Numbered from the stretch's first letter, positions 27,079-33,654 are shown. The stretch: 33,709 nucleotides of DNA from Acidimicrobiaceae bacterium (GCA_002694825.1 NZNH01000079.1:2833-36541); one strand, 5' to 3'. Numbers and translations: made by a program. The notes: a model not told the origin generated them from the letters alone.

Positions 27079-28398
27079 GTGACGTTGACCTTCGGAACCG
27101 ACGGCATGCGGGGTGATGCCCGCACCGAACTGACTCCTGTGCCTGTCCGCGCCCTTGCGCGAGCCGGAGCGGAGATCCTTGGTCACCGTGGCTTCGCCGT
27201 CGGTCGAGATACTCGCGCCTCGGGTCCGGAGCTCGCCGACGCCGTGCATGCAGGTGTCGCCGCTGCTGGCGGTGATTCAGCCGATCTCGGCGTTGTGCCG
27301 ACGCCGGCCGTCGCCCGATGGTGTGCCGATCATCAGGTCGCCGGAGCGATGATCTCGGCGTCGCACAATCCCTGGTACGACAACGGCATCAAATTCTTCG
27401 CCCCCGGTGGGTCGAAGCTCGGTGATCGGGTGCAGGACGAGATCCAGGCCCGTTTCGACGCGCTGCGGGGAACCGAGATCGAGGCGATTCCGACGGTCGT
27501 GGACGCCCATGACATCGCAGCCGAGTCTCACGTCGACAGCGTTGTCGCCAGCCTCGATGGGCGCAGCCTCGCCGGACTCGTCGTCGTTGCCGATGCGGCG
27601 AACGGTGCGGCGTACGACGTCGCCCACCGGGCGCTGATTCGCCTCGGTGCCGACGTGACGATGCTCCATGCCGCTCCCGACGGCACCAACATCAACGACG
27701 GGTGTGGGTCGACCCATCCAGAATCGCTGCAGGCCGCTGTCGTCGAGCGCGGCGCCGACCTCGGCGTCGCATTCGACGGTGACGCGGACCGGCTCCTCGC
27801 GGTCGACGCCGATGGTCGTCTGATCGACGGCGATCAGATCATCGCCATGTGCGCACTCGACGCCAAGGCTCGAGGCGGTCTCGCCGGCGATGCGGTCGTC
27901 GTCACCGTCATGACCAACCTTGGTTTCCGGCGGGCGATGGACGACGCCGGCATCCACATTGTCGATACCAAGGTCGGCGATCGCCACGTGCTGGAGGCGC
28001 TCGACGCAGGTGGGTATTCGCTTGGCGGCGAACAGTCCGGCCACGTGATCTTCCGCGAACTCGCTTCGACCGGTGATGGCCTCCTCACGGCGGTGCAACT
28101 GCTCGACATCGTGGCGCGCCGAGGACGCCCACTCGGCGTGCTGGCCGATGCGGCGATGACCCGCTTGCCGCAGGTGCTGCAGAACGTTCGGGTCGCCCAG
28201 CGGCCGGCCGACGTCGATGGGCCACTCGCCCCGTTTATCGACGCGTCACTTGCCCGCATGGCTGGCCGGGGTCGTGTGCTGATCCGGCCCTCGGGTACCG
28301 AACCGCTCATCCGGGTCATGGTCGAAGCCGAAACCGATGCCGAGGCCCGAATGGAGGCCGATGGCCTCGTCGCTGCGGTCGAGTCGCTTTTCGGCTGA
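27079..28398 (+). CDS. glmM: Phosphoglucosamine mutase
   Basis: Converts glucosamine-6-phosphate to glucosamine-1-phosphate for UDP-GlcNAc and peptidoglycan. It has 439 residues from the GTG at 27079 (MTLTFGTDGMRGDA). The phosphoserine loop ISASHNPWYDNGIKFF holds catalytic Ser95; the metal site DGDADR supplies Asp233, Asp235 and Asp237; the sugar loop GGEQSGHVIF is near residue 315; the C-terminal phosphate loop RPSGTEPLIRVMVEA ends the protein. The assignment to glucosamine (GlmM) over other hexose mutases rests on motif style and on the GlmS-like gene 87 bases downstream, as near rplM-rpsI in mycobacteria. Confidence 0.95.
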   Translation: MTLTFGTDGMRGDARTELTPVPVRALARAGAEILGHRGFAVGRDTRASGPELADAVHAGVAAAGGDSADLGVVPTPAVARWCADHQVAGAMISASHNPWYDNGIKFFAPGGSKLGDRVQDEIQARFDALRGTEIEAIPTVVDAHDIAAESHVDSVVASLDGRSLAGLVVVADAANGAAYDVAHRALIRLGADVTMLHAAPDGTNINDGCGSTHPESLQAAVVERGADLGVAFDGDADRLLAVDADGRLIDGDQIIAMCALDAKARGGLAGDAVVVTVMTNLGFRRAMDDAGIHIVDTKVGDRHVLEALDAGGYSLGGEQSGHVIFRELASTGDGLLTAVQLLDIVARRGRPLGVLADAAMTRLPQVLQNVRVAQRPADVDGPLAPFIDASLARMAGRGRVLIRPSGTEPLIRVMVEAETDAEARMEADGLVAAVESLFG

Positions 28399-28485: not shown

Positions 28486-31400
28486 ATGTGCGGGATCATC
28501 GCCGTAGTCCGGCGCCCTTCGACACGAGCAGCGCCGACGAGCCAGTCGGTCCTTGATCTCGTCGCGGGTCAGGCCACCCTGCTCGGCTCCGGCCCCGATG
28601 CCACCGATGCCATTGCTGCGGTCGGTACTCGCCTTGCCGAGGCCGACGCCCTCCTGCGCGGTGTTCCCGGCCTCCGTCTCCTGTTGGCCGAGTCCAGCCT
28701 GGGTCCGGCTCTGGTGCACCACTGCGGTGAGCTCCTCGCTGCGGTCGAGCAGGAGGAACAGCGACTCGAGCAGGATGGCAGCCTTTCGACGAAGCAGCTT
28801 GAAGCCCGCAACCAGGCCTTGATCGCTGTTCGCGATGGGGTGTGGGCGATCACCCGCGACCGGCTCCGGGCCGCAGAGGTCGTCAGCCACCTCAGCGGCG
28901 GTGCGATGCATACCGGGTCGCTCGAGGCCTTCCTGTCGATCCACCAGGCCCTGTCGGCGATCGATCGGCTTGAGGTCCGCGGCCGCGATAGCGCTGGCCT
29001 GCACGTCCTCGTTCACGACCATGCGCTCGACCTTGACGATCCGGTGATCGCCGCCGAGATCGACCGTCGTTCGGGCGATCCCAACTTTGGCACCGGCTCG
29101 GTTCGCGTCGTCGACGGGGTCCTGAGCATCGTGCACAAGACCGCCGCCGAGATCGGTGAGCTCGGCGACAACACGGCAGTGATCCGCCAAGCGTTCGCCG
29201 ACGACGCGTTGCTGCACGCTGCGCTCGCCAACGAAACCGCTCGCACACTGGTGCTCGGCCACACCCGTTGGGCGTCGATCGGCATCATCTCCGAGCCGAA
29301 CGCTCACCCACTCAACAGCGAGCTGGTCGACGCTGCCGGCCCCTATGTCGTCGGCGCGCTCAACGGCGATGTCGACAACTTCGCGGATCTGATCGCCGAC
29401 GAGGGCGTGACGATCACGCCGTCCATCACCACCGATGCCAAGGTCATCCCGTCGCTTACGAGCCGCCGCCTCGGTGAGGGGCTCGAGTCGGCTGAGGCGT
29501 TCCGGCGCACGGTTGCAACGTTCGAAGGTTCCGTCGCCATCGGTGCGTGCACGGCGGCCGCACCGGACAAGCTTCAGCTGGCCCTGCGTGGCTCGGGTCA
29601 GGCGCTCTACATCGGTCTCGCCGAGGATGCCTACATCGTCGCTTCCGAGCCCTACGGCGTGGTTGAAGAGACGGCTCACTATGTCCGCATGGACGGTGAG
29701 ACACCCGGCAACCCCGAGAATCCCAACGCCAGTCGCGGTCAGATCATCGAGCTTGATGGTGATCTCGCCGGAACGGTAGAGGGGATGCTGCGCAAGGCGT
29801 ACGACGGCACCGATCTGGCCGTTGCAGCCAACGACGTCGCTGTTGCCCAGATCACCACTCGCGATATCGATCGGGGTGATCACCCGCACTATCTGATGAA
29901 GGAGATCGGCGAGTCACCGACCTCGTTCCGTAAAACGCTCCGCGGCAAGATCGTCGAGACCGACGCCGGCTTGCGGGTCTCGCTCGGGCCTTCGGTGATC
30001 CCCGACGAAATCCGCGAACTGGTTCGCAACGGCACCATCACGCGGGTGCTCGCGATCGGGCAGGGCACGGCAGCCGTCGCCGGACAGGCGCTTGCCGCCG
30101 GCCTCGATGCTCTCACCCCCAACGGTGAGATCGAGGTGGAAGCCGTTCTCGCCACCGAGCTCTCCGGCTTCCGGCTGCGGCCCGACATGAGCGACACCCT
30201 GGTCGTCGCCGTCAGCCAGTCCGGTACCACCACCGACACCAACCGCACGGTCGACATCGTTCGCAACCGAGGCGCCAAGGTCATTGCGATCGTCAACCGG
30301 CGGGGGAGCGACCTCACCGATCGCGCCGACGGTGTGCTGTACACCTCCGACGGACGCGATGTGGAGATGTCGGTCGCCTCAACGAAGGCGTTCTACTCGC
30401 AGATCGCAGCGGGGCTCTTGCTGTCGATTGCCATCACTGACGAGCTGCTCGGTGACGAGATGGCCGACGACCGCGCCGGCCTGCTGAAGGGCATCACTGA
30501 ACTGCCAGCCGCAATGGAGACTGTGCTCGGCCGTCGCGACATCATCGGCGAGGCCGCCCGCCAGTTCGCGCCAAGCCGGCGCTACTGGGCGATGGTCGGC
30601 AACGGGCCCAACCGGATTGCAGCGCAGGAGGTCCGGGTCAAGCTGAGCGAGCTCTGTTACAAGTCGATCGCCGCCGATAGCACCGAGGACAAGAAACACA
30701 TCGACCTGTCGTCTGAGCCGCTGATTTTCGTGTGTGCCGCCGGCCTGTCCGGCTCGACCGCCGACGACGTCGCCAAGGAAGTGGCGATTTTTCGGGCGCA
30801 CAAGGCAGCGCCGATCGTCGTGGCCGACGAGGACCAGTCGCGGTTCTCGAGCGCGCTCGCCGTGCTCCCGGTGCCGGCCGTCGACCCTCGTCTGGGCTTC
30901 ATCCTCTCGACGATGGCCGGCCATCTCTTCGGGTACGAGGCTGCGCTGGCCATCGATGCGCAGGCTCGTCCGATGCGCGAGGCCCGCAGCGCAATTGAGC
31001 AGGCCGCCGCACACCCCCAGATGAGTGGTGAAGAGGCGCTCGTGTCGGTCGAGTCCACGCTCGAACGAACAGCGGCTTCGTTCTTCGACCTGCTCCGCAC
31101 CGGTGAGCTCAACGGCCATATGGAGGCGTCGACGGCGAGCAGGGTCGCATCGCTTCTGCGGTTTGCGCTCGGTTCCTCGCCGCTCGAGGCCTACCAGATC
31201 GAATACGGCAAGGTGGGCACGCCTGCCGTCGTGCTCGATGATCTCGCCGCCGCCCTCACCCTCGGCATCGAAGAACTCACCCGCCCGATCGACGCCATCA
31301 AGCACCAGGCCAAGACCGTGACGGTCGGCATCTCCCGCTCCGACGAGACACTCCTCGACGTTGCGCTCAGTCGGGCTGTGGTCGATGCGGGGGCTCCCCG

Positions 31401-31920
31401 CGATCGCCTGTCCTACGCCTCGCTGCGCACCCTCGCTGACCTCGACCCGGCGATCGACGACGTGCTCGGTCACACCCGCTATCGCATCGAGGGCATGGAC
31501 GCTGACGGCAACGGCGAGGCCACGGCTGTGGTCGTCGACCGAGGCGGCATCAGCCGTAACATCGCCTCTCGTACCGACCGCAGCCCGACCCTGAAGGGCA
31601 CGAAGCATCAGGTGGCGCTCGAGCGACGGGTGTTCGTCGCCCGAGGCCGTTCTGATGACCGAACCGTCGTGATCGTCCCCGAAGTGAAGGACAACGTCAC
31701 CACCGGACTCACACTGCTCCAGGTGAAACTCGCCGACGAGCTGTCGCCCGGCGCCGCTCGCGGCGTGCTGCAGGGCTACCGCAACCGCTACTCGGCGGTG
31801 CGTGACGCCGTGATGGAGACCGAGCCGATCTTTCGCGAAGACCTTCTCGGCCAGCAGCCGGTCGCCGATCTGCTCACCTTGCCGATTAACGATCTCGCCG
31901 ACCGTTGGCGGGTGAGCTGA
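28486..31920 (+). CDS. glmS: Giant GlmS-like glutamine--fructose-6-phosphate aminotransferase
   Basis: Predicted to make glucosamine-6-phosphate, the substrate of GlmM. At 1144 residues it is almost twice normal GlmS (about 600-625). Glutaminase half: nucleophile Cys2 (MCGIIAV), RGRDSAG (165-171), GHTRW (258-262), NAHP (272-275), LNGD with Asn293-Gly294, TTDAKVI with Asp317. Isomerase half: HPHYLMKEI (466-474), first SIS domain about 518-650 with SQSGTTTDT (577-585) and ASTKAF (631-636), second SIS about 698-826 with Lys719, Glu722 and His738 spaced as Lys485, Glu488 and His504 of the Escherichia coli enzyme. The catalytic-Lys tail appears as QAKTVTVG (Lys943), displaced by about 100 residues. 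Extra parts: helical insertion about 12-158, about 45 residues before GHTRW, insertion about 827-930, and an unrecognised 951-1144. AGGAGA precedes the ATG. The frame is unbroken throughout. A different sugar substrate cannot be excluded. Confidence 0.85.
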   Translation: MCGIIAVVRRPSTRAAPTSQSVLDLVAGQATLLGSGPDATDAIAAVGTRLAEADALLRGVPGLRLLLAESSLGPALVHHCGELLAAVEQEEQRLEQDGSLSTKQLEARNQALIAVRDGVWAITRDRLRAAEVVSHLSGGAMHTGSLEAFLSIHQALSAIDRLEVRGRDSAGLHVLVHDHALDLDDPVIAAEIDRRSGDPNFGTGSVRVVDGVLSIVHKTAAEIGELGDNTAVIRQAFADDALLHAALANETARTLVLGHTRWASIGIISEPNAHPLNSELVDAAGPYVVGALNGDVDNFADLIADEGVTITPSITTDAKVIPSLTSRRLGEGLESAEAFRRTVATFEGSVAIGACTAAAPDKLQLALRGSGQALYIGLAEDAYIVASEPYGVVEETAHYVRMDGETPGNPENPNASRGQIIELDGDLAGTVEGMLRKAYDGTDLAVAANDVAVAQITTRDIDRGDHPHYLMKEIGESPTSFRKTLRGKIVETDAGLRVSLGPSVIPDEIRELVRNGTITRVLAIGQGTAAVAGQALAAGLDALTPNGEIEVEAVLATELSGFRLRPDMSDTLVVAVSQSGTTTDTNRTVDIVRNRGAKVIAIVNRRGSDLTDRADGVLYTSDGRDVEMSVASTKAFYSQIAAGLLLSIAITDELLGDEMADDRAGLLKGITELPAAMETVLGRRDIIGEAARQFAPSRRYWAMVGNGPNRIAAQEVRVKLSELCYKSIAADSTEDKKHIDLSSEPLIFVCAAGLSGSTADDVAKEVAIFRAHKAAPIVVADEDQSRFSSALAVLPVPAVDPRLGFILSTMAGHLFGYEAALAIDAQARPMREARSAIEQAAAHPQMSGEEALVSVESTLERTAASFFDLLRTGELNGHMEASTASRVASLLRFALGSSPLEAYQIEYGKVGTPAVVLDDLAAALTLGIEELTRPIDAIKHQAKTVTVGISRSDETLLDVALSRAVVDAGAPRDRLSYASLRTLADLDPAIDDVLGHTRYRIEGMDADGNGEATAVVVDRGGISRNIASRTDRSPTLKGTKHQVALERRVFVARGRSDDRTVVIVPEVKDNVTTGLTLLQVKLADELSPGAARGVLQGYRNRYSAVRDAVMETEPIFREDLLGQQPVADLLTLPINDLADRWRVS

Positions 31921-31966: not shown

Positions 31967-32338
31967 ATGATCGGGATCGGAACCGACCTCGTTGACATCG
32001 ACCGTTTCCGCGAGGTGCTCACCCGCACTCCGGGAATTCGGACGCGACTGTTTTGCGACGCAGAACTCGCCTACGCCGACACGAGTGGCGATCCCGCCCG
32101 CCCCCTTGCCGCCCGGTTCGCAGCGAAGGAGGCGTTTCTCAAGTCGCTGAAGTCGGGCCTCGGCGCCGTTCGCTTCAGTGAGGTTGAAGTCGTTCGCCAT
32201 GACGACGGTCATCCCGAACTCGTGCTGCACGGCGAGGCGGCTGTGTTCGCCCGGAGCAAGGGCGCCGGACGGTTCGAGATCAGTCTCACCCATACCGACA
32301 CGCTTGCGCAGGCGGTCGTGGCGGCGCTGCCCGAGTGA
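31967..32338 (+). CDS. acpS: Holo-[acyl-carrier-protein] synthase
   Basis: Transfers 4'-phosphopantetheine from CoA to acyl carrier protein. It has 123 residues, the usual trimeric AcpS size. Metal/substrate residues are seen in MIGIGTDLVDI (Asp7) and RFAAKEAFLKSL (Glu55), and the end has the ISLTHTDTLAQAVV strand. It lies 46 bases after the GlmS-like gene and overlaps nnr by four bases (GTGA). AcpS next to nnr is a common bacterial pairing. Confidence 0.95.
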   Translation: MIGIGTDLVDIDRFREVLTRTPGIRTRLFCDAELAYADTSGDPARPLAARFAAKEAFLKSLKSGLGAVRFSEVEVVRHDDGHPELVLHGEAAVFARSKGAGRFEISLTHTDTLAQAVVAALPE

Positions 32339-33654
32339 TCCCGATCGTCACCCCCGCCGAGATGGCGGCGATCGACGCTGCCGCGCCCGTGCCGGTCGCT
32401 GCGCTCGTCGAACGTGCTGGCGCAGCGGTGGCTCGCGCCGCCGTCGACCTTCTGGGCGGGACGTATGGACGGCGGGTGGCGGTCGTCGCAGGCAAGGGCA
32501 ACAACGGGGCCGACGGCCGCGCCGCCGCCACCCGGCTCCAACGTCGTGGCGTGCGATGCGTGGTGCTCGATCCCGACATCGCCGCGCTGCCGGTCGAGGT
32601 CGATCTCGTCATCGATGCTGCCTACGGCACGGGCCTCAGTCGGCCCTACGACTTCCCGGCCGTTCCCGAGGGTGTCCCCGTCCTCGCCGTCGACATCCCG
32701 TCCGGGGTCGACGGTCTCACCGGAGCGCGCCTCGGTTCGCCGCCCGCTGCCGATCGCACGGTCACTTTTGCGGCGCTGAAGCCCGGTCTTCTTCTCGAAC
32801 CAGGGCGGGAACTGTCCGGCGAGGTGGTGGTCGCCGACATCGGCCTCGACACGGGCGACGCCACGATTGACCTCGTCGAAGGGTCCGACGTGGCTGATTG
32901 GCTGCCCGTACCGGCCGCCACGGTCCACAAGTGGCACCACGCCATCCGCATCATCGGCGGGTCGTCCACGATGACCGGCGCTCCTCGTCTCGCTGCCCGC
33001 TCGGCCCAGCGCCTGGGGGCGGGCTACGTGCAGATGGCGATCCCTGGCCGCGACGGCGTCGACGATCCGGTCGAGGCGGTTGGGTATTCGCTCCCGGCCT
33101 CGGCGTGGGGTGCCGCAGCGGTCGCCGACCTTGATCGTGTGGCTGCCGTACTCGTGGGTCCCGGACTCGGCCCCGGCCATGACGTCGATGTGGCCACGGT
33201 GCTCGGCGTCGACCGTCCGCTCGTTCTCGACGGCGACGCACTGCAGCCCGAGTTCCTTGATGTGATTCGCGATCGCGCTGCGCCAACTGTGTTGACCCCG
33301 CACGGCGGTGAGTTCGCCCGGCTCGCCGGCCACACCACCACCGACCCCATCGCCGCCACCCGAGAACTCGCAGCCTCGATCGGCGCTGTCGTCGTCCACA
33401 AGGGACCGACGACGATCGTGGCCGACCCCGACGGGCCGGTCCTGGTTGTGGCCAACGGCGGCCCGGCACTCGCCACGGCCGGTACCGGTGACGTGCTTGC
33501 CGGAGCGATCACCGCCTTGCTCGCCCAGGGGGTCGATCCCGTTCGCGCAGCGGCGTCCGCAGTCTGGCTCCATGCCGAGGCCGGGCGTGAACAGGTGGGC
33601 CTCGTCGCCTCTGATCTGCCCGACCGGCTCGCCCTGCTGCTCAGCGACGGCTGA
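32335..33654 (+). CDS. nnr: Bifunctional NAD(P)H-hydrate epimerase / ADP-dependent dehydratase
   Basis: Repairs hydrated NAD(P)H: the N-terminal YjeF_N domain epimerises the R form and the C-terminal ribokinase-like domain dehydrates the S form using ADP. It has 439 residues from the GTG at 32335. Epimerase motifs: KGNNGADG (54-61), IDAAYGTG (93-100) and VDIPSGVDG (119-127). Dehydratase motifs: HKWHHAIRIIGGSSTMTGAP (198-217), TPHGGEF (321-327), NGGPALATAGTGDVLAG (374-390) with the catalytic Asp in GTGD. Both halves look complete. The next gene overlaps the stop by one base. Confidence 0.95.
   Translation: MIPIVTPAEMAAIDAAAPVPVAALVERAGAAVARAAVDLLGGTYGRRVAVVAGKGNNGADGRAAATRLQRRGVRCVVLDPDIAALPVEVDLVIDAAYGTGLSRPYDFPAVPEGVPVLAVDIPSGVDGLTGARLGSPPAADRTVTFAALKPGLLLEPGRELSGEVVVADIGLDTGDATIDLVEGSDVADWLPVPAATVHKWHHAIRIIGGSSTMTGAPRLAARSAQRLGAGYVQMAIPGRDGVDDPVEAVGYSLPASAWGAAAVADLDRVAAVLVGPGLGPGHDVDVATVLGVDRPLVLDGDALQPEFLDVIRDRAAPTVLTPHGGEFARLAGHTTTDPIAATRELAASIGAVVVHKGPTTIVADPDGPVLVVANGGPALATAGTGDVLAGAITALLAQGVDPVRAAASAVWLHAEAGREQVGLVASDLPDRLALLLSDG

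Follow-up and report, generated by a model that had tools for sequence, protein, structure and literature searches.

The synthesis of peptidoglycan and of other amino-sugar polymers starts with GlmS. The canonical bacterial enzyme (TIGR01135), as characterized in E. coli (PDB 2j6h and 1jxa), is a protein of about 609 residues that is composed of an Ntn glutaminase domain and a double SIS domain. In known GlmS proteins the C-tail and the tryptophan of the Q-loop (Trp74) form the ammonia channel (PMC7948480). The eukaryotic GFAT-1 and GFAT-2 have the same core and additionally contain extra loops in the glutaminase domain that are thought to be regulatory (PMC7948480). According to the literature, feedback inhibition by UDP-GlcNAc is restricted to eukaryotic GFAT, where it uses Arg343, Gly355, Thr447, Gly461 and His463 (PMC7000685). 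Enlargement of a central-metabolism enzyme is also seen in the mycobacterial L-GDH180 (PDB 7jsr), the helical and PAS-type modules of which have been proposed to be metabolic sensors (PMC8175468). Our searches of the open-access literature turned up no account of a long GlmS or of any GlmS from the Acidimicrobiia.

Here we analyze a stretch of 33,709 nucleotides from an Acidimicrobiaceae bacterium (GCA_002694825.1, NZNH01000079.1:2833-36541; termed the window, with positions counted from its first letter) that encodes a GlmS-like protein of 1144 residues, P0001. This long form shares with canonical GlmS the glutaminase and double SIS domains, the catalytic residues and the C-tail lysine, and in the Acidimicrobiia both types have the same genomic neighborhood and occur once per genome. 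It differs by the addition of an insert at residues 13-158 (the N-insert), a second insert at residues 178-246, a group of helices at residues 823-930 and an entire domain after the C-tail, which is internal in the long form (HQAKTVTVG, versus NLAKSVTVE in canonical GlmS). The extra parts of GFAT-1 and GFAT-2 are located elsewhere and are unrelated, and neither protein has a domain after the C-tail. L-GDH180 has an unrelated catalytic core, and its likeness to the tail of P0001 is at the level of the fold and is not significant (best Foldseek match, E = 0.013). We interpret P0001 as the only GlcN6P synthase of the cell, a deeply divergent, double-length GlmS in the canonical locus that carries regulatory or structural add-ons, and give this reading a probability of roughly 0.55.

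Gene, locus and domain architecture

The reading frame of P0001 (28486-31920, plus strand) runs without interruption from an ATG start, begins with MCGII and is preceded by a purine stretch, GGAGAG, about 8 bases 5' of the ATG. An Rfam search of the upstream region returned neither a glmS ribozyme nor any other RNA at E values up to 1. The product of the adjoining glmM gene carries out the next pathway step after GlmS (Table 1). The gene order rplM-rpsI-glmM-GlmS-acpS-nnrD is common to long-form and canonical GlmS genomes of the Acidimicrobiia, and the source genome has only one gene of the P0001 type.

Table 1. Features of the long-form GlmS gene and its neighbors, in window coordinates
Feature	Position	Strand	Remarks
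glmM (phosphoglucosamine mutase)	27079..28398	+	PGM_PMM domains I-IV; directly upstream of P0001
Long-form GlmS (P0001)	28486..31917	+	Open frame of 1144 residues; 81 of the 198 genomes of the class encode relatives
Residues 1-12, N-terminal strand with Cys2 nucleophile	28486..28521	+	MCGI invariant in 82 long forms; model strand 3-9
Residues 13-158, N-insert, helical bundle	28522..28959	+	Family-specific; not present in GlmS of E. coli or in canonical GlmS of the class
Residues 159-404, rest of glutaminase domain	28960..29697	+	RGRDSAG, HTRWAS, NG and TD motifs; Pfam GATase_6 253-388
Residues 178-246, second glutaminase insertion	29017..29223	+	About 50 residues longer than E. coli; KxxxEIGELGDN motif
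Residues 456-822, isomerase (double SIS) domain	29851..30951	+	Pfam SIS 520-647; TM (target) 0.83-0.91 with isomerase-domain structures
Residues 823-930, extra helices between SIS2 and C-tail	30952..31275	+	No counterpart in canonical GlmS
Residues 931-950, C-tail equivalent	31276..31335	+	IDAIKHQAKTVTVG for PRNLAKSVTVE; K943 = E. coli K603; internal
Residues 951-1144, C-terminal domain	31336..31917	+	PAS-like strand/helix order at about 988-1083 (31447-31734)
acpS	31967-32338	+	Kept downstream neighbor; Pfam ACPS, Carb_kinase and YjeF_N found across acpS and nnrD
nnrD	32335-33654	+	Kept downstream neighbor; Pfam as for acpS

P0001 was aligned with E. coli GlmS (MG1655), 12 canonical GlmS proteins of the same class and 15 long forms. 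The blocks that do not align with E. coli GlmS are residues 13-150, 178-202, 210-217, 231-246, 278-284, 405-417, 823-930 and 949-1144, where 150 is the alignment edge of the N-insert and 158 is its end as defined by structure. The initial annotation had described an open frame adjoining glmM, with a large insertion after the Cys2 strand and a second one before HTRW. The frame is indeed intact, glmM is immediately upstream, and both insertions (about 146 and about 50 residues, respectively) are real and correctly placed because they match blocks that are unaligned to the E. coli protein. Its account of the added residues was correct for these two glutaminase insertions but missed the larger C-terminal additions at 823-930 (about 110 residues) and 949-1144 (about 195 residues), which together amount to about 300 residues. 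Searches of Pfam and the PDB found no meaningful sequence relative of the N-insert. In P0001 as a whole Pfam recognizes only the one GATase_6 stretch and the one SIS domain that are listed in Table 1.

An AlphaFold2 model of full-length P0001, built with 82 family members (pLDDT 89.9, pTM 0.84), places the N-insert after the Cys2 strand and ahead of the first helix of the glutaminase domain, with helices at residues 39-57, 59-68, 72-96, 102-137 and 143-162. The N-insert evolves fast, as mean pairwise identity among the 82 members is 35% and only 3 of 146 columns are invariant. Within the second insertion K218, E222, G224 and L226-N229 are invariant across the 82 sequences. Around the 823-930 block the model has helices at 804-841, 848-871, 881-895 and 913-932. 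The C-tail that follows is the most conserved segment of P0001 (96% mean pairwise identity), and its middle is the least certain part of the model (pLDDT 52-56). Its motif is partly kept at residues 936-948 and does not form a free end, with 196 residues coming after it.

Active sites and probable identity as GlmS

Cys2 of P0001 corresponds to Cys1 of mature E. coli GlmS, and the other glutaminase residues Arg73, Trp74, Asn98, Gly99 and Asp123 correspond to R261, W262, N293, G294 and D317, which together with R165 and H259 are conserved. In the isomerase domain Ser347-Gln348-Ser349 and Thr352 are represented by S577-Q578-S579 and T582, while Lys485, Glu488, His504 and Lys603 are represented by K719, E722, H738 and K943. 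These catalytic residues are identical in all 15 long forms compared and are also kept in the 82-sequence alignment, in agreement with the earlier observation that the glutaminase and SIS motifs are retained. A Foldseek search with the P0001 model matched human GFAT-1 and E. coli GlmS 2j6h, the latter with a TM (target) score of 0.77 over 680 columns, in accordance with an overall fold of glutaminase plus double SIS. Substitutions relative to E. coli do occur in the sugar-phosphate and glutamine sites, where C300 is replaced by Q526, S303 by A529, E351 by T581, T76 by S264 and H77 by I265.

The curated glmS models TIGR01135 and NF001484 score P0001 at 218 and 231 bits, which is below their cut-offs of 418 and 381 and places P0001 outside TIGR01135 equivalog membership by score. 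The TIGR01135 match covers residues 246-822, and other long forms score 207-249 bits on the curated models, likewise below cut-off. As this is about half of the NCBI glmS cut-off, automated annotation probably misses the long form. The low score, the substrate-site substitutions and the deep split from canonical GlmS described below would also fit a different glutamine-dependent sugar-phosphate aminotransferase in a cell that makes GlcN6P some other way. We consider this improbable given that neither the source genome nor any of the 81 long-form genomes of the class has a second GlmS, that the gene occupies the same locus adjoining glmM, and that the equivalents of K485, E488, H504 and K603 are all conserved. 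Judged by its single-copy status, its locus and its residues, the long form very probably has GlmS activity.

Distribution and history of the long form

Relatives of P0001 with 47-75% identity, mostly full-length, are present in 81 of 198 Acidimicrobiia genomes. A canonical GlmS over the TIGR01135 cut-off is present in 104 of these genomes, both types in none and neither type in 13, and no family of the class has both types. The same curated model scored above cut-off in 14 of 14 control genomes. In the source genome no canonical GlmS exceeds the cut-off, which answers an earlier query about a normal GlmS elsewhere in that genome; besides P0001 there is a weak 226-residue N-terminal match that is probably PurF. 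Among the 13 genomes with neither type, 8 are reduced genomes of one genus (f21) and are mostly incomplete. Three genomes of the class that are 95-98% complete (G181, G054 and G148) have neither a canonical nor a long GlmS over threshold, and may represent MAG gaps or salvage-dependent organisms.

The 116 full-length relatives are 1110-1173 residues long and at least 44% identical to P0001. All 82 non-redundant long forms carry the N-insert (131-160 residues), the extra helices (99-115 residues) and the tail (185-197 residues). A protein of this kind, encoded in a draft genome of 107 contigs, could conceivably stem from an assembly error, a frameshift or a gene fusion. Because the architecture is shared by 116 independently sequenced full-length relatives, including those in one-contig assemblies (G110, G190 and G002), and is also found in a complete Aquihabitans chromosome, we regard the likelihood of an artifact or of chance as negligible. 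In one two-contig assembly (G149) the long GlmS is encoded by a pair of overlapping frames, of 784 and about 431 residues (L052, 4735-8269), as the result of a frameshift that is either real or a sequencing error.

Outside of the class, a survey of 296 genomes of the phylum located the long form in families f52, f59, f79 and f82. Named genome contigs contained 549 relatives, the best 80 of which were examined and are mostly labeled Acidimicrobiia, Acidimicrobiales, Ilumatobacter, Microthrix, Aquihabitans or unclassified Actinomycetota/Actinomycetes. A few Planctomycetia, Acidobacteria, Bifidobacterium and Thermoanaerobacterales labels among these best 80 of 549 are taken to be misnamed MAGs. 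No plasmid-borne long form was found, and the GlmS proteins encoded on plasmids are all canonical. In the class that includes G350, family f82 holds both types, yet each of the 24 genomes has one or the other, and the same either/or pattern holds for 3 of 3 genomes in the class of G231. The genus of G350 carries the long form without the rplM-rpsI-glmM and acpS-nnrD neighbors. The patchy pattern around G350 suggests horizontal transfer of the long form.

We constructed a core tree (599 columns) from the long forms together with GlmS from E. coli, alphaproteobacteria, Priestia, haloarchaea and Methanohalobium and with 12 canonical forms from the Acidimicrobiia. In this tree a very long branch, supported at 100/100, divides the long from the canonical forms, and core identity is 24-33% between the two groups versus 36-79% among canonical forms. 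Recent extension of the canonical GlmS of its own class does not account for the long form. The initial annotation had suspected a distinct GlmS lineage, an assignment that is well supported by this split, by the failure of the two types to co-occur in the genomes checked and by their one shared locus.

The C-terminal domain and possible control of the enzyme

When residues 826-1144 were modeled alone the pLDDT was 93.6. The region after the C-tail is predicted to form a long helix, two strands, three short helices, three further strands and C-terminal helices. The strands are at 990-1002, 1013-1021 and, after the short helices, at 1050-1053, 1060-1068 and 1071-1082, which gives the b-b-a-a-a-b-b-b order of a PAS domain as judged by the order of the elements. 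Foldseek matches of the tail are mostly PAS, GAF and CACHE sensor domains with low TM scores, the first being the large GDH of M. smegmatis, and no match has an E value below 0.001. Pfam PAS, GAF and CACHE models matched the tail in 0 of 41 members, and the tail has no meaningful sequence relatives in Pfam and the PDB. The PAS reading is a lead and not a demonstration, since the Foldseek matches are not significant and there is no PAS/GAF match in Pfam; we moderately favor a PAS/GAF-type fold. Mean identity across the tail is 55% with 16 invariant columns, among them R1029, K1040, D1057 and R1059, which would, speculatively, suit an anionic ligand.

It may be asked whether the extra parts sense anything at all, as they could be purely structural and set dimer or hexamer assembly or stability. 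The N-insert is helical and fast-evolving and the 823-930 helices resemble packing elements, both of which fit such a role, but the C-terminal domain is conserved like a functional domain and its fold class is usually sensory, so that a purely structural role appears rather unlikely. Built-in control of the long form is plausible, with the C-terminal PAS-like domain being a better candidate for the sensor than the N-insert, which could equally be an oligomerization or packing element.

The order of the window organism has a shortened GlmU, the ORF of which (372-406 residues) matches E. coli GlmU to about residue 344-347 and lacks the rest of the acetyltransferase domain toward the C-terminus (for example, L158 in G110, L159 in G047 and L160 in G035). 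The shortened GlmU co-occurs with canonical or long GlmS, and in other orders of the class GlmU is full-length. No recognizable GlmU was found in the source genome (G000, best match 51 bits) or in G075, a 98% complete genome of the same family (best match E = 5.5e-17), and the class survey likewise found none in G039, G169 and G187. Where GlmU ends this early, as in many genomes of the order, the acetylation step may be missing, and the C-terminal domain of the long form could then add a pathway step such as this acetylation. We think such a bifunctional enzyme very improbable, as shortened GlmU is also found alongside canonical GlmS (G047, family f5) and full-length GlmU alongside long GlmS (families f27 and f28), and as the predicted tail is not recognized as an acetyltransferase (one chance-level GNAT match in 41). 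Because each trait occurs without the other, GlmU shortening and long GlmS are independent; GlmU truncation tracks order and not GlmS type, and the tail as a substitute for the lost part of GlmU is rejected. An anti-correlation with the UDP-GlcNAc sensor GlmR/YvcK (TIGR01826) was also rejected, since YvcK is present in many long-form families (f7, f8, f9, f27 and f28). YvcK is absent from the long-form families f1, f2 and f4 (source genome included), and most other free-living families in the class carry it.

With P0001 read as the GlcN6P synthase of the cell, glutamine would be hydrolyzed at Cys2, and the ammonia would reach the SIS domain through the usual channel, GlcN6P being made there from fructose-6-P. 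The extra parts, with less assurance, may serve in control or in assembly. Packing of the N-insert on the glutaminase domain, where it would offer a surface for oligomerization or for a partner, is probable. The C-tail is tethered at both ends, by the 823-930 helices and by the PAS-like C-terminal domain, and these elements may act on the C-tail and hence on the coupling of the two active sites. With the C-tail clamped in this manner, a bound ligand or partner could alter it and tune channeling. The P0001 segment DGVLYTSDG, when matched by eye to the human sequence, presumably puts Leu618 at the position of His463, and for this reason the long form may not use the feedback site of the eukaryotic enzyme. 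Allosteric control through the tail is suggested by the PAS-like topology and its direct attachment to the catalytic C-tail, a proposal that we hold tentatively, at somewhat under even odds. The fold class and the analogy to the large GDH (PMC8175468) also hint at a sensor role. More speculative still is the full picture, in which an internal PAS-like sensor is coupled to the catalytic C-tail, letting a metabolite directly gate ammonia channeling and hence UDP-GlcNAc supply, and in which this class of enzyme replaced canonical GlmS in much of the Acidimicrobiia, and in other Actinomycetota sporadically, as a self-regulated counterpart, by unrelated means, of the feedback-controlled eukaryotic GFAT.

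It looks as though many Acidimicrobiia use a double-length, deeply divergent GlmS in place of the canonical enzyme. The curated glmS model misses this form, and such genomes would therefore be scored as lacking the GlmS step. The strict either/or distribution of the two types at one locus provides a replacement series of natural origin. Should the tail prove to be a sensor, the long form would be a case of allostery built into a GlmS of bacteria.
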